A stretch of DNA of 64,000 nt from Flavobacteriaceae bacterium. Lineage in GTDB: Bacteria; Bacteroidota; Bacteroidia; Flavobacteriales; Flavobacteriaceae. Location of the stretch: NCBI GenBank assembly GCA_026709415.1, contig JAPOSZ010000030.1:186001-250000 (forward strand), in the 5' to 3' direction. A program made the translations under genes and the position numbers. The notes below the pieces were generated by a model that made no database searches, was not told the DNA's origin, and was given only the letters and a program-made list of their open reading frames with translations. Positions 13,874-19,568 of the stretch are shown here, one piece after another (within the stretch, counting starts at the first letter, position 1; each line of letters starts with the position of its first letter).

Positions 13874-13881
13874 TACCTTTG
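13874..13881 (+). promoter_or_regulatory. Bacteroidota -7 box TACCTTTG next to a start codon
   Basis: TACCTTTG ends only six bases before the ATG at 13888. If used, transcription would begin at or next to the start codon, giving a leaderless mRNA for the DUF5706 gene. Confidence 0.38.
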
Positions 13882-13887
13882 ATTCGC

Positions 13888-14481
13888 ATGAAATCAATAG
13901 ATGTCAAAGAAGCTGAAGAAGCTAGAACAGATAATTTCGAAACTAGAAAGGAACCTCGAAAATCTTTTCAGACGTTTTTAAGAAATCAGAATAGATTATA
14001 TATCAATTCTTTCAATATAATTGACCGAAAGGCTTCGATTATGATTCGGATGAATTCCATCATTATCTCGGGGGTCTTCTTGTTTTACAACAATGTTAAG
14101 GATGTCGAATTGGGAAGTCTTATTGGATTAATCTTAATTATTTGTTGTTTTTTATCCCTATTATTTGCATTAAATGCTTCTCGACCAAATTCCTTTGGGG
14201 CCTTATTTTTTATCAAACAAAACACAAAAAAACGTCAGTTAAAAACAGAAGAAACGCTTTTTGTGTCTGGAATAAACACCCATCTGACGGAAGAAGATTT
14301 TGAGAAAGCCTTTGATAAAGTTGTCAAAGATCAAAAACTGCAAATAGGGAACCAAGCAAGAGCTATTTATATGTTTGAAAAGAGAATTAGACAATCTTTT
14401 TTCCATATTGAGGTATCATATTTGACATTTATGTTCGGTTTTGTGTCCGTCGTGATATTATTCGTCATAGGTAATCTGTAG
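13888..14481 (+). CDS. DUF5706 (Pycsar effector-like) two-TM protein
   Basis: A 197-residue protein. After a charged N-terminus comes LYINSFNIIDRKASIMIRMN, then TM1 and TM2 (about residues 48-85) and a conserved SRPNSF motif. A second paired hydrophobic region lies at the C-terminus. This resembles the DUF5706 membrane module, relatives of which act as effectors in Pycsar cyclic-pyrimidine anti-phage systems, and which also occurs fused to HD hydrolases in Bacteroidota. No cyclase gene is adjacent, so a defence role is not established. It is followed after 16 bases by the phosphoesterase-barrel gene, likely in one operon. ATG 13888 is preferred to the TTG at 13879, which lies inside the promoter box. 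Confidence 0.68.
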   Translation: MKSIDVKEAEEARTDNFETRKEPRKSFQTFLRNQNRLYINSFNIIDRKASIMIRMNSIIISGVFLFYNNVKDVELGSLIGLILIICCFLSLLFALNASRPNSFGALFFIKQNTKKRQLKTEETLFVSGINTHLTEEDFEKAFDKVVKDQKLQIGNQARAIYMFEKRIRQSFFHIEVSYLTFMFGFVSVVILFVIGNL

Positions 14482-14497: not shown

Positions 14498-17400
14498 TTG
14501 AAAAAGAATCTGTTTTTTTTAGCAATTCTTTTGCTAGCTGGAAGATGCGCCACCTACCAGCCACAAAATCGTTCGATAACTAAAGAATCCTTTCCTCAGG
14601 ATAAAGAAATTCAACACTCATTTTATTTGATTGGTGACGCAGGAAATGCAAACCTTCATGAAGTCCCATCAACACTTGAGGCCTTTAAAAAGGAATTAGA
14701 TCATGCATCATCAAATGCGACGGCTATTTTTTTAGGGGATAACGTTTATAGATACGGCATTCCAAAAAAATCAGCAGAAGATTATGAATTAGCCAATTAT
14801 AGATTAAAAGTTCAGACAGATGTCACCAAAGATTTTAAAGGCAACACCATCTTTTTGCCCGGAAATCATGACTGGTTCAGTGGATTAGACGGATTAAAAA
14901 GACAAGAGCATTTGGTAGAAAAATATCTTGGCAAGAATACTTTTTTGCCAGAAAATGGTTGCTCAATTCTTCGAAAACATATTACAAAGGAGATTGATTT
15001 AATCATTATCGATAGTCAATGGTATATTACCAATTGGAATAAACACCCCCAAATTAATGATGATTGTGATATAAAAACTCGAGAAGGTTTTTTAAATGAA
15101 TTCAGTAGTCTCATCAAAAAAGCCAGAGGCAAAACCACGATTGTAGCGTTACATCACCCAATGTATTCTAATGGTCCTCACGGTGGGGAATATTCATTGA
15201 TGAGTAGTTTAAAGCCGTTACCATTATTAGGAACGCTTAAAAATGTAATCAGAAAAACTAGTGGAGGTAACAAAGCGGATATACAACATACTCGCTATCG
15301 AGAATTAAAAAAAAGATTGGTTGCCATGGCTCAAGCGAATAAAAAAGTGATTTTTATATCAGGACATGAGCACAGTTTACAGTATTTGGTAGAGGATAAT
15401 TTACATCAAATTATCAGTGGATCAGGATCCCTAATTTCTCCCGTTCGTATGATTGGTGGGGGGCGATTTGGCTTTGCTACCAATGGATTTGTTCGCTTAG
15501 ATATATTTAATGATGGATCATCATATGTGCGCTTTTATTCAGTGAATGAGGATGAAATTGTTTTTGAACGTCAGGTATTTCCTCCCGATGTAAGGGAACC
15601 ATTCGATGAATATCCTTCAGAATTCCCTCCCAGCGTTTCTGCTTCGATATATACCGATGAAGAAGCCAATAAAACAGGTTTTAAAAAATGGTTATGGGGA
15701 GAGCGTTATCGAAAATATTACAGCACAAAAGTCAATGTCCCGACAGTCCATCTTGATACGCTTTATGGGGGATTGAAACCCATAAGAAAAGGTGGTGGAA
15801 ACCAATCGAAATCACTACGATTGGAAGACAAGGAGGGGGCTCAATATGTCATGCGAGCACTAAGAAAGCAGGCATTACAGTATCTCCAAGCCGTATTATT
15901 TAAAGATCAGTACATAGAAGGACAATTTGATGATACGGTTGCCGAAAGTTTATTGTTGGATGTTTTCACCGGTTCACATCCGTATGCTCCTTTTGTCATT
16001 GGTGATTTATCCGATGCCGTGGGCGTGTTTCATACCAATCCTATTTTATATTATGTTCCAAAACAAAATGCTTTAGGTTCTTTCAATCAAGAGTTTGGAG
16101 ACGAACTGTACATGATTGAGGAGCATGCTTCGGAGGGACATGCTGATAAAGCTAGTTTTGGGTTTCAGGACAAATTGTTCAGTACTCCTGATATGCTAGA
16201 AAAGTTGCATCAAGATGAAGACATTATGGTTGATGAAGCTTCTTACATAAGAGCCCGTTTGTTTGACATGTTAATCGGAGATTGGGATCGACATCAAGAC
16301 CAGTGGCGCTGGATTCAGTTTAATGAAGGCGGGAAAAAGATCATGCGACCAATGCCTCGAGATCGAGATCAAGCATTTTCCATCATGTCCGATGGATTTT
16401 TGTTGAGCGTGGCGGTGAAATTGGTTCCTCTTTCTAGGCTACTGAGAAAATACTCTGATGATTTAGTGGATGTCAAAGGGGTCAACGCATCGCCTTATCC
16501 TTTGGATATGGAATTGATTGTTCAATCTGACAAGGAGATTTGGGATCAGCAAGTTAAAATCATTCAAAAAGGGATAACCGATCAAATGATTGATCAAGCC
16601 TTTTTAAATATGCCAGCAGAAGTTCGAGATGAAACGGTAGAAGAAATAAAACGAAAACTAAAAGCCAGGCGAGGGAATCTTCAAAAAATATCAGACAGAT
16701 ATTTTACTTTTTTAAATAAACTCGCCGTGATCAAAGGGACAAACAAAGATGATTGGTTTGATGTCCAACGATGGCCTAATGGATTAACAAAAATCACTGC
16801 CTTTCGGATTCAAAAAGGGGAAAAGGGAGAAATTTTTCATGAACGGGTTTATTCTCATGAACAGACTAAAGAAATTTGGATCTATGGATTAGATGATGAT
16901 GATGTATTTCACGTATTTGGAGAGAATGGAACTAACGAAATTAGATTGCGATTAGTTGGCGGTCAAAATAGAGATACTTATGATATTAAAAACGGAAAAA
17001 GGGTTTCTTATTATGATTATAAATCCAAGAAAAGTGATGTCATGACCAAAAAAGGAAAACAAAAGTTTCGGGATGACTATCAAACCAATGTATACAACTT
17101 CAAAAAATTGAAGCCAAGTGGAACTCAAATCATACCATCCCTAGGATCCAATCCAGATGATGGATTCAAGATAGGCTGGAATCTATCTCATACCCATTTT
17201 GGTTTTGAACGCAATCCATTCACAGTTCAGCATCATGTCAATCTAGGATACTATTTTGCCACAGAAGGTTATGACATGGCTTATGCTAGCGAGTTTGCTC
17301 ATATTTTTAAGGGCGTCAATTTTGGGATTGAGGGATTGTTGACTAGCCCAAATTATGCCATAAACTTCTTTGGCTTTGGGAATGGGACAGATAATTTAGA

Positions 17401-18175
17401 AGAAGAAAAGTCTTTGGATTTTAATCGAGTGAGAATTAAAACGTTAAAAATAATGCCTTCATTGGTTTGGCGAGGGGAATTAGGAGGTAGTTTTAAAGTA
17501 GGCATGTTCTATCAGAGTCATGAAATTGAACGAGATAAAGGGCGGTTTTTAGATATTACATCCAATGATGAAGGGGTTTTTGAAAAGCAAGAATTTATGG
17601 GCGGTGAAATAAGGTATCATTTTGAAAATAAAGACAATCATGCTTTTCCCACATTGGGGTTTCAAATATCGGTTGACGCGGGATTAAGTTACAATGTCAA
17701 TTCTCCAATGGGCTACGGATATGTTGTTCCTGAGGTCGGATTCAATTATCGTTTGGTACCCAGTGGTCAATTGGTTTTAGCGACAAACCTTCGTAGTCAT
17801 TTCAATGTTGGTGATGAGTTTCAATTTTATCAGGGAGCGACCATCGGTGCTAAAAATGGACTAAGAGGGTTTCGGAATGAGCGGTTTACCGGCAAAACAT
17901 CATTTGTTCAAAGCACCGATCTTCGATGGGTCTTCAATAACATGAAAACGGGGTTGTTACCCATAAGAATGGGTTTCTTTGGTGGAATTGATCATGGACG
18001 AGTTTGGATGGATTGCGATCGAACGACTCTCGATTGCCATGAGACCAATCAATGGAAAAATTCTTTAGGGGGAGGATTTTTTATTAATACGGCAGAAATG
18101 TTTGCCGGCAATATTTCAGTATTTCATAGTGATGAGGGGGTGCGTATGTCTTTTGGTGTAGGATTTGATTTTTAA
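14498..18175 (+). CDS. Metallophosphoesterase / kinase-like / Omp85-like barrel protein
   Basis: A 1225-residue exported protein (signal peptide about 1-17, TTG start). Residues 40-350 are a calcineurin-like phosphoesterase with all metal motifs: GDAG (D47), GDN (D81), GNHD (N123-H124), ALHHP (H219-H220) and GHEH (H290-H292). Residues about 420-640 look like an atypical kinase fold: a Gly-rich GGGNQSKSLRL, VAESLLLDVF, LIGDWDRHQDQ (D597-R598-H599) and PRDRDQAF. That arrangement recalls FAM20, HipA and CotH proteins. Residues about 890-1225 are a beta-barrel; GAKNGLRGFRNERFTG is the Omp85/surface-antigen signature. The layout suggests a surface-displayed enzyme carried by its own barrel. The phosphoesterase and barrel calls are strong; the kinase-like call is inference. 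Confidence 0.8.
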   Translation: MKKNLFFLAILLLAGRCATYQPQNRSITKESFPQDKEIQHSFYLIGDAGNANLHEVPSTLEAFKKELDHASSNATAIFLGDNVYRYGIPKKSAEDYELANYRLKVQTDVTKDFKGNTIFLPGNHDWFSGLDGLKRQEHLVEKYLGKNTFLPENGCSILRKHITKEIDLIIIDSQWYITNWNKHPQINDDCDIKTREGFLNEFSSLIKKARGKTTIVALHHPMYSNGPHGGEYSLMSSLKPLPLLGTLKNVIRKTSGGNKADIQHTRYRELKKRLVAMAQANKKVIFISGHEHSLQYLVEDNLHQIISGSGSLISPVRMIGGGRFGFATNGFVRLDIFNDGSSYVRFYSVNEDEIVFERQVFPPDVREPFDEYPSEFPPSVSASIYTDEEANKTGFKKWLWGERYRKYYSTKVNVPTVHLDTLYGGLKPIRKGGGNQSKSLRLEDKEGAQYVMRALRKQALQYLQAVLFKDQYIEGQFDDTVAESLLLDVFTGSHPYAPFVIGDLSDAVGVFHTNPILYYVPKQNALGSFNQEFGDELYMIEEHASEGHADKASFGFQDKLFSTPDMLEKLHQDEDIMVDEASYIRARLFDMLIGDWDRHQDQWRWIQFNEGGKKIMRPMPRDRDQAFSIMSDGFLLSVAVKLVPLSRLLRKYSDDLVDVKGVNASPYPLDMELIVQSDKEIWDQQVKIIQKGITDQMIDQAFLNMPAEVRDETVEEIKRKLKARRGNLQKISDRYFTFLNKLAVIKGTNKDDWFDVQRWPNGLTKITAFRIQKGEKGEIFHERVYSHEQTKEIWIYGLDDDDVFHVFGENGTNEIRLRLVGGQNRDTYDIKNGKRVSYYDYKSKKSDVMTKKGKQKFRDDYQTNVYNFKKLKPSGTQIIPSLGSNPDDGFKIGWNLSHTHFGFERNPFTVQHHVNLGYYFATEGYDMAYASEFAHIFKGVNFGIEGLLTSPNYAINFFGFGNGTDNLEEEKSLDFNRVRIKTLKIMPSLVWRGELGGSFKVGMFYQSHEIERDKGRFLDITSNDEGVFEKQEFMGGEIRYHFENKDNHAFPTLGFQISVDAGLSYNVNSPMGYGYVVPEVGFNYRLVPSGQLVLATNLRSHFNVGDEFQFYQGATIGAKNGLRGFRNERFTGKTSFVQSTDLRWVFNNMKTGLLPIRMGFFGGIDHGRVWMDCDRTTLDCHETNQWKNSLGGGFFINTAEMFAGNISVFHSDEGVRMSFGVGFDF

Positions 18176-18206: not shown

Positions 18207-19568
18207 TCAAAAAACACTTTTTATGAAGAATTTCTCAGTTATTTTCCAAATTATTGGCTTTACCTTGATATGTCTCTTATTGTACAATCCATCAAATTCG
18301 AACCTATTCAATAGGAATTTTTCAATGATTAATAATAAACTCTCTCTAGCTTCAAAGTGAGAGTATTGGGGGATGTTGACTTCTCTCTTTTTTTCATCAG
18401 AGTGTACTAGATTGTTTCTCAAGGATGCTACTGCATGCGAAAGGGTTTCTATTTTTGATTCTCCATGAATCTTGTTATAATTTTCTGAATACTCTTTCAA
18501 ATGAGGTGTGTTTTTTGTGATATTATTAGGAATTGAAAGAGCTTTCATTAGCTCTCCTATTTTTTCCCCTGTATATTTCTTTCTCTCTTTGTTCTCCTCT
18601 TTCACCTTTTCACACTTAATTCCGTAAAGCTTATCTTTTTTGCAAAAATTCCAAATCAATTCAACTCCAGCTTGAGCCAAAACAAGACTTCCAGAGGTAT
18701 AACCGCTATTGATATTAGCCATACAATACCAATAAATTAAATCAATATAAGCTTGAAAATCATCTGTTTTGACGAAAAAATTGAGCATTTTTTCTAAAAT
18801 AGATAATCTTTTAGAGTTATATATATCAGAAGAGAGTAAAACCTTATGACAAGATTTATACGATTTAATGTTTCCATAGGTTGGGTGCCAGTTGATTATT
18901 TCATTTTTATCGTTGAAAAAGTTCAATAAAGCAAACCCTAAATCCTGACCGTTTAGAAATCTTAAAGACAAAATCAAACGGTCTAAAATAATTTCAACTT
19001 CTTTAATAGATCTGCCGTTTGCAAACTTTATACGGACATGATGCGTTATGCAGTAGCCACCTTTTCTTTCGAGGGTTTTAATAATTGAAGGCAGACATTC
19101 TCTGTCACTTAAAGAGACCTCTACGCATTCATTTTCTCCATTCTTTTGTGATAAAAATTTAAACTTAAAACCGGGTTTTTTTGATGAATTACAAACTGAA
19201 AAGTTAACAATTGAAAACTCAATTTCCTTAATTAACTCAATGTTCTGCATTGGAAAATTTAACATCACTTTTATTGAATCTGAGAATTCGATGATCCTTC
19301 CATTAGAAAAGTATAGGTTATCGATAATAACATAAAACTCAGTACTCATCAAGATGTGTTCAATAGGAATTTGATTTGAACATGTGCCGCTTAATTCAAA
19401 ATACGGAATAGTGTTCCAATTCATATAAATTTCAAAATTTAAAACATGAAAATGGGTTGTCTTCGAATTTAAAAGAGCCTCATCACCTTTATGAATAATG
19501 ATTCGCTCATTAACAAGTTCTTTGAATTTCAAAGATTTACGATCGATAATAAAATTGGTTTTTCTCAT
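18207..19568 (-). CDS. Uncharacterised protein with C-terminal HEPN-like domain
   Basis: A 453-residue protein without signal or membrane segments. The C-terminal third contains SGSLVLAQAGVELIWNF (about residues 292-308) and, 75 residues on, LRNNLVHSDEKKRE with R384-N-N-L-V-H389, the Rx4H motif of HEPN ribonucleases. The N-terminal 240 residues are strand-rich and unrecognised. This layout resembles ApeA-type and other HEPN proteins linked to phage defence. It stands alone between two convergent or tandem housekeeping units, is richer in A+T than its neighbours by eye, and has no antitoxin-like partner, so horizontal acquisition is likely. The function is not proven. Confidence 0.65.
   Translation of the reverse strand: MRKTNFIIDRKSLKFKELVNERIIIHKGDEALLNSKTTHFHVLNFEIYMNWNTIPYFELSGTCSNQIPIEHILMSTEFYVIIDNLYFSNGRIIEFSDSIKVMLNFPMQNIELIKEIEFSIVNFSVCNSSKKPGFKFKFLSQKNGENECVEVSLSDRECLPSIIKTLERKGGYCITHHVRIKFANGRSIKEVEIILDRLILSLRFLNGQDLGFALLNFFNDKNEIINWHPTYGNIKSYKSCHKVLLSSDIYNSKRLSILEKMLNFFVKTDDFQAYIDLIYWYCMANINSGYTSGSLVLAQAGVELIWNFCKKDKLYGIKCEKVKEENKERKKYTGEKIGELMKALSIPNNITKNTPHLKEYSENYNKIHGESKIETLSHAVASLRNNLVHSDEKKREVNIPQYSHFEARESLLLIIEKFLLNRFEFDGLYNKRHIKVKPIIWKITEKFFIKSVF

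Follow-up and report, generated by a model that had tools for sequence, protein, structure and literature searches.

A conserved kinase-like domain joined to an Omp85 barrel and often to a phosphoesterase, and its linkage to PycTM genes in Bacteroidota

The window, the 64,000 nucleotides of Flavobacteriaceae DNA analysed here, contains a gene whose product appears to combine a phosphoesterase and a kinase-like domain with an outer-membrane barrel, which raises the question of what such a protein might do and on which side of the membrane. The gene (14498-18175, forward strand, like all domains and motifs given below) is a single open frame of 1225 amino acids with a TTG start, is closed by numerous stops on the antisense strand and was found in a single copy when its own genome was searched. 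A sequence-only reading had named the motifs LIGDWDRHQDQ (D597-R598-H599), PRDRDQAF (D622, D624) and LRGFR, each of which lies exactly where it was claimed to be. In an AlphaFold2 model of residues 26-1225 (pLDDT 90.3, pTM 0.88), a metallophosphoesterase (MPE) domain is followed by a kinase-like domain, a beta-rich domain and an Omp85 barrel.

Computational evidence points to a two-lobed, kinase-like fold for the middle domain (residues ~395-742; 15680-16723). An AlphaFold2 model of residues 388-765 reached a pLDDT of 94.1 and a pTM of 0.92, and Foldseek matched it to CtkA, COQ8A, YihE, HipA, Rio2, PI4KII-alpha, HipT and FAM20C in the PDB. CtkA was the best match (E=2.9e-5, probability 1.00, TM 0.52 by target); Foldseek probabilities were 0.99-1.00 for HipA, PI4KII and Rio2 and 0.91 for FAM20C, and the TM-scores against known kinases were moderate (0.40-0.52 for CtkA). 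The sequence-only reading had set a non-kinase fold of this region as its refuting outcome; the predicted fold is kinase-like.

By sequence, the middle domain resembles no single kinase family more than marginally. Searches with the Pfam and NCBIfam models gave no convincing match to it, the Pfam profiles of HipA (PF07804), CotH (PF08757) and FAM20C (PF06702) did not match the window domain, and PADLOC run on the locus returned for the kinase-like domain nothing beyond a marginal PDC-M03A match over the catalytic loop. Single family members gave weak Pfam matches to Fam20C (7e-4), CotH (0.013) and HipA_C (0.19), mixed with other chance-level matches. When the family sequence profile was searched against PDB chains, CtkA ranked first (E=0.015), with its D155 aligned to the DRH motif. 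This Helicobacter pylori kinase (PDB 3akj/3akl) has a DRH catalytic loop and a D-to-D spacing like those of the window domain (D155-D179, 24 residues, vs D597-D622, 25 residues), but is 11% identical to it and has neither MPE nor barrel. In 30 CotH proteins, catalytic loop and DxD motif aligned in register (LTGNWDNY..PYDYDNTLG against LIGDWDRH..PRDRDQAF, p=0.005), and under default hhalign scoring the comparison with CotH scored 30.1 as against 14-22 for unrelated controls, although CotH kinases have a different N-lobe and no DRH triplet. An E-value of 2.7e-5 for CotH with hhalign -corr 0.3 was set aside because an unrelated MPE control rose as well (E=4e-4), so that the default score alone is used here. 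Kinship with the HipA family by profile comparison was likewise rejected, its score being near background. HipA and FAM20C have the kinase-like fold in common with the window domain, and the Gly-rich GGARPK of HipA lines up with GGGNQSK, but HipA is a cytoplasmic toxin-antitoxin kinase, unlike the window protein. Together, the fold matches, the CtkA profile match and the CotH alignment place the kinship to CotH, HipA and FAM20 at the level of the superfamily and not of the family; the resemblance proposed earlier therefore holds for the fold and the in-register motifs, whereas the profiles of these families do not take the domain in.

The putative active site is conserved far above chance, as judged from 106 homologues less than 75% identical to one another. 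The residues of the DRH and DRD motifs, on which the earlier proposal depended, are retained in nearly all of them (D597 94%, H599 95%, D622 100%, D624 97%). D590, D595, W603, D622 and G633 are invariant in all 106, and W596, D597, R598, H599, Q602, D624, R453, K457, E541 and the Gly-rich loop are kept in 92-98%. The candidate catalytic loop, D590-MLIG-D595-W-D597-R-H599-QDQWRW605 (16265-16312), is in register with GNFDRH of CtkA and GNWD of CotH, and PRDRDQAF (16355-16378) would form the DFG-equivalent metal site, in register with the CotH motif PYDYDNTLG. Upstream, the putative nucleotide loop GGGNQSKSLRL (residues 432-442; 15791-15823) retains G432, G433 and G434 in 92-97% and Q436 in 95% of the homologues. 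Among MPE-fused proteins, R453, K457, D590, D595, H599, D622 and D624 were each present in 136 of 136. One of the six patterns that seeded the first scan for homologues was WDRHQDQW itself, a possible source of bias; a motif-free search of the phylum gave the same picture of conservation.

Two positions are atypical. R453 (98%) lies within the predicted strand 449-454, apparently at the position of the beta-3 lysine, with K457 (97%) four residues further on (15854-15868), and the residue at D+5 is Gln (Q602) instead of Asn. Changing the beta-3 lysine to arginine is a means of killing canonical kinases, and pseudoenzymes occur in many kinase-like families. The domain might accordingly be a pseudokinase, a dead binding module of kinase fold whose role would be to regulate the MPE and the barrel or to position them. 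We consider this quite improbable: across homologues that range down to ~30% identity, D597, H599, D622, D624 and K457 are retained in 94-100%, and the site residues persist even in proteins with a dead MPE or none at all, whereas a decayed site would show the reverse. An Arg at beta-3 has also been described in another atypical kinase-like family, so that R453 is less of a concern (PMC9758233). In two relatives (L167 and L168), position 597 is Gly and the MPE site is degraded as well; these may be genuine pseudoenzymes.

The N-terminal domain (residues ~40-370; 14615-15607) matched Pfam Metallophos at residues 42-242 (E=2e-10, above the cut-off) and contains all five metal motifs, namely D47, GDNxY (D81), GNHD (122-125), HHP (219-221) and GHEH (289-292). 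Its PDB match in Foldseek was GAP50 (3tgh, E=6.9e-11), which is of the purple acid phosphatase type; the calcineurin-like phosphoesterase with a full metal set that had been read from the sequence is thus there, but it is purple-acid-phosphatase-like and a dispensable part of the protein. Fold and motifs (GDxG, GDNxY, GNHD, GHxH) are common to purple acid phosphatases, TRAP and GAP50, from which the window MPE differs in being fused to a kinase-like domain and a barrel. In many relatives with the kinase motif, the MPE is absent, degenerate or split off. About 8 of the 136 MPE-fused proteins have lost several metal ligands and mostly or fully kept the kinase site, which argues that the MPE is accessory and the kinase-like domain the core. 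On a tree of 77 kinase domains, the MPE-fused label required 9 changes, of which well-supported branches force at least 7, indicating repeated gain or loss. Within the family, the MPE thus comes and goes beside a constant kinase-like core.

The sequence-only reading regarded this architecture as unusual; within Bacteroidota it is common, though unannotated. A phylum search with residues 380-800 found the kinase-like family in 141 of 395 genomes and 73 of 171 genera. Custom profiles assigned 137 proteins to the full order of MPE, kinase-like domain, beta domain and barrel, 26 to the same order without MPE, 9 to kinase-like plus beta domain and 5 to the kinase-like domain alone; the window's own copies are counted in, and the figures carry a sampling bias. 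Five plasmid records contain relatives, labelled 'hypothetical protein' or left without annotation, and no relatives were found on viral contigs. In two loci (L153 and L155), kinase, MPE and barrel are encoded by three consecutive genes with the same module order, which supports the view that the modules act together. The three genes of L153 nearly touch or overlap, and every product carries an export signal, of lipoprotein type for the kinase-beta and the MPE proteins; its separate barrel protein passes Pfam Omp85 (E=8e-13). Tandem or divergent paralogues of barrel-less kinase-beta proteins occur in family f9 (L154, L156, L157).

Fusions of a PF00149 domain to the N-terminal side of an Omp85 barrel, the arrangement also seen in the window protein, have been known since 2014 as the 'Metallo' subfamily; the paper that describes them (Heinz and Lithgow 2014, PMC4104836) takes PF00149 for a metalloprotease and is silent on any kinase. 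The middle region could on this precedent be a structural linker in an ordinary phosphoesterase-Omp85 fusion, but this is hardly credible, since the region is confidently modelled as kinase-like and occurs without MPE and without barrel. Here, in contrast to the 2014 description, the MPE is optional beside a constant kinase-like domain, and the presence of this domain gives the 'Metallo' subfamily a new interpretation. A literature search, which covered few subscription papers and preprints, found no paper on the kinase-like domain or on the PycTM linkage described below.

Between kinase-like domain and barrel lies a beta-rich domain (residues ~743-860; 16724-17077), delimited by strands in the full-length model, which also trails the kinase-like domain in barrel-less relatives. 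The barrel itself (residues ~875-1225; 17120-18172) has 16 long strands in the model, and its PDB matches in Foldseek were the barrels of BamA and TamA (TamA, TM 0.78 by target). Within the signature LRGFR (1122-1126; 17861-17875), L1122, R1123 and G1124 are conserved at 96-99% and R1126 at 91%. The NCBIfam model Omp85_fam matched only the C-terminus of the barrel and below its 200-bit cut-off (E=4e-13, 49.5 bits), yet strands, signature and structural matches bear out the earlier assignment to Omp85.

That reading had further suggested that the protein displays itself on the surface. Omp85 barrels start on the periplasmic side, which by default would put the enzyme domains in the periplasm. 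No POTRA domain was found, either as a Pfam match or as a POTRA-like order of elements in the full-length model. The N-termini of relatives consist of a signal peptide with a canonical lipobox (..SCATYKPQY); the export signal of the window copy (...LAGRC-ATYQ; 14498-14548) keeps the Cys at residue 17 but has Arg at -1, which makes its lipidation uncertain. An Omp85 barrel with an N-terminal enzyme is also the plan of PlpD (PMC4104836), and the barrel might, as in such type Vd systems, display or release MPE and kinase outside the cell. This we regard as unlikely: the POTRA that precedes the barrel in the PlpD type is missing, relatives carry an N-terminal lipobox, and in L153 the modules are separately exported proteins, two with lipoprotein-type signals, so that the enzyme domains need not be passengers of a barrel. 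The 'Metallo' subfamily, too, stands outside those with predicted POTRA domains (PMC4104836). Instead of surface display, the topology and the lipobox of the homologues suggest that the enzyme domains most likely sit on the periplasmic face.

The gene is preceded at 16 bp by a co-oriented gene (13879-14481, forward strand) for a membrane protein of 200 amino acids with a PycTM domain (PF18967; Pfam E=1.4e-7; PADLOC 2TM Effector/PycTM) and without HD domain. Among loci flanked by 2 kb or more, PycTM was found nearby in 69 of 98 with the full architecture and in 9 of 20 without MPE, in every relative orientation, and as proteins either of ~400 amino acids with an N-terminal HD domain or of ~200 without. 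Both families were present in 120 of the 395 genomes, the kinase-like family alone in 21, PycTM alone in 24 and neither in 230; PycTM thus accompanies the kinase-like domain in 120 of 141 genomes, as against 24 of 254 that have PycTM but lack this domain (Fisher p ~1e-53, with genome relatedness ignored). Where positions were listed for both, 86 of 105 genomes had the pair within 6 kb and 98 of 105 within 20 kb. The Pycsar defence system has PycTM effectors, which share this transmembrane domain with the neighbour protein; the linkage ties PycTM proteins, known as effectors of phage defence, to a putative outer-membrane enzyme. The cyclase that defines Pycsar was not found here: the 95%-complete window genome gave no match to the class III/pyrimidine cyclase model PF00211, and many of the PycTM relatives have an N-terminal HD domain. 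Viewed from the other side, 120 of 144 Bacteroidota genomes with a PycTM domain also contain the kinase-like family, usually adjoining, and many Bacteroidota 'Pycsar effector' annotations may therefore lie outside Pycsar.

The gene adjacency hints at a phosphate-based envelope system that has gone unrecognised. The explanation that we hold to be somewhat the more probable is an exported kinase-like phosphotransferase, anchored at the outer membrane, with an optional phosphatase and a PycTM partner. Its core would be an atypical domain of the HipA/CtkA-CotH-FAM20-PI4KII type, joined by the small beta domain to the Omp85 barrel that would hold it at the outer membrane. Phosphoryl donor and metal would be bound at D597, D622 and D624, and the substrate phosphorylated might be an envelope protein, glycan or lipid. 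The optional purple-acid-phosphatase-like domain fused in front would probably act as an opposing or substrate-trimming phosphatase, and the inner-membrane PycTM protein from the adjoining gene, with or without HD domain, may be a partner in physical contact. In other lineages, a propeller lipoprotein and polyphosphate kinase might be further partners. Apart from R453, beside which K457 is equally conserved, the Gln at D+5, the moderate TM-scores and the marginal sequence similarity speak against this phosphotransferase reading.

Its weakest point is the phosphate donor, as ATP is scarce outside the cytoplasm. To our knowledge, few kinases work there, and where they obtain their phosphate donor is an open question, for which this family would offer hundreds of bacterial examples: extracytoplasmic kinase-like proteins whose site looks intact and which would be anchored at the outer membrane, in many cases as fusions with a phosphatase. 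Polyphosphate kinase genes, which 16 of 52 diverse kinase-barrel proteins have within 5 kb, are a lead on the donor and nothing more. They also bear on a rather unlikely alternative, in which the kinase-like fold catalyses a different envelope reaction such as AMPylation, phosphate transfer from polyphosphate or another donor, or phosphorylation of a small molecule. The Gln at D+5 and the Arg at beta-3 would suit this alternative, and no ATP pool is known from the periplasm; the link to polyphosphate kinase, however, consists in gene proximity, which is rare in the window's own family and absent at its locus, PPK1 lying on another contig of the genome. PPK1 adjoins the kinase-Omp85 gene in L123, L133, L137, L142, L146, L151 and L152, and loci of this kind often contain genes for an SdiA-regulated propeller lipoprotein and for PycTM as well. 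Such lipoprotein genes are recurrent neighbours of the family, and no SdiA-regulated protein was found in the window genome.

A more far-reaching interpretation, which we put forward tentatively as possible and short of probable, is a phylum-wide trans-envelope phospho-relay of outer-membrane kinase/phosphatase barrel, propeller lipoprotein and inner-membrane PycTM effector (with or without HD domain), linked to polyphosphate metabolism. If it exists, this relay could be a device for envelope stress or for the sensing of phages, and many Bacteroidota 'Pycsar effector' annotations would in that case denote parts of it. Two further kinds of neighbours were noted. Downstream of the gene, 18207-19568 (reverse strand) encodes a protein of 453 amino acids that weakly matches Apea-like HEPN (E=8e-4) and is missing near the closest relative (L001). 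Another cluster of neighbours, proteins of 700-800 amino acids represented by a gene with no Pfam match (L170:8628-11012, reverse strand), recurs in 44 loci.
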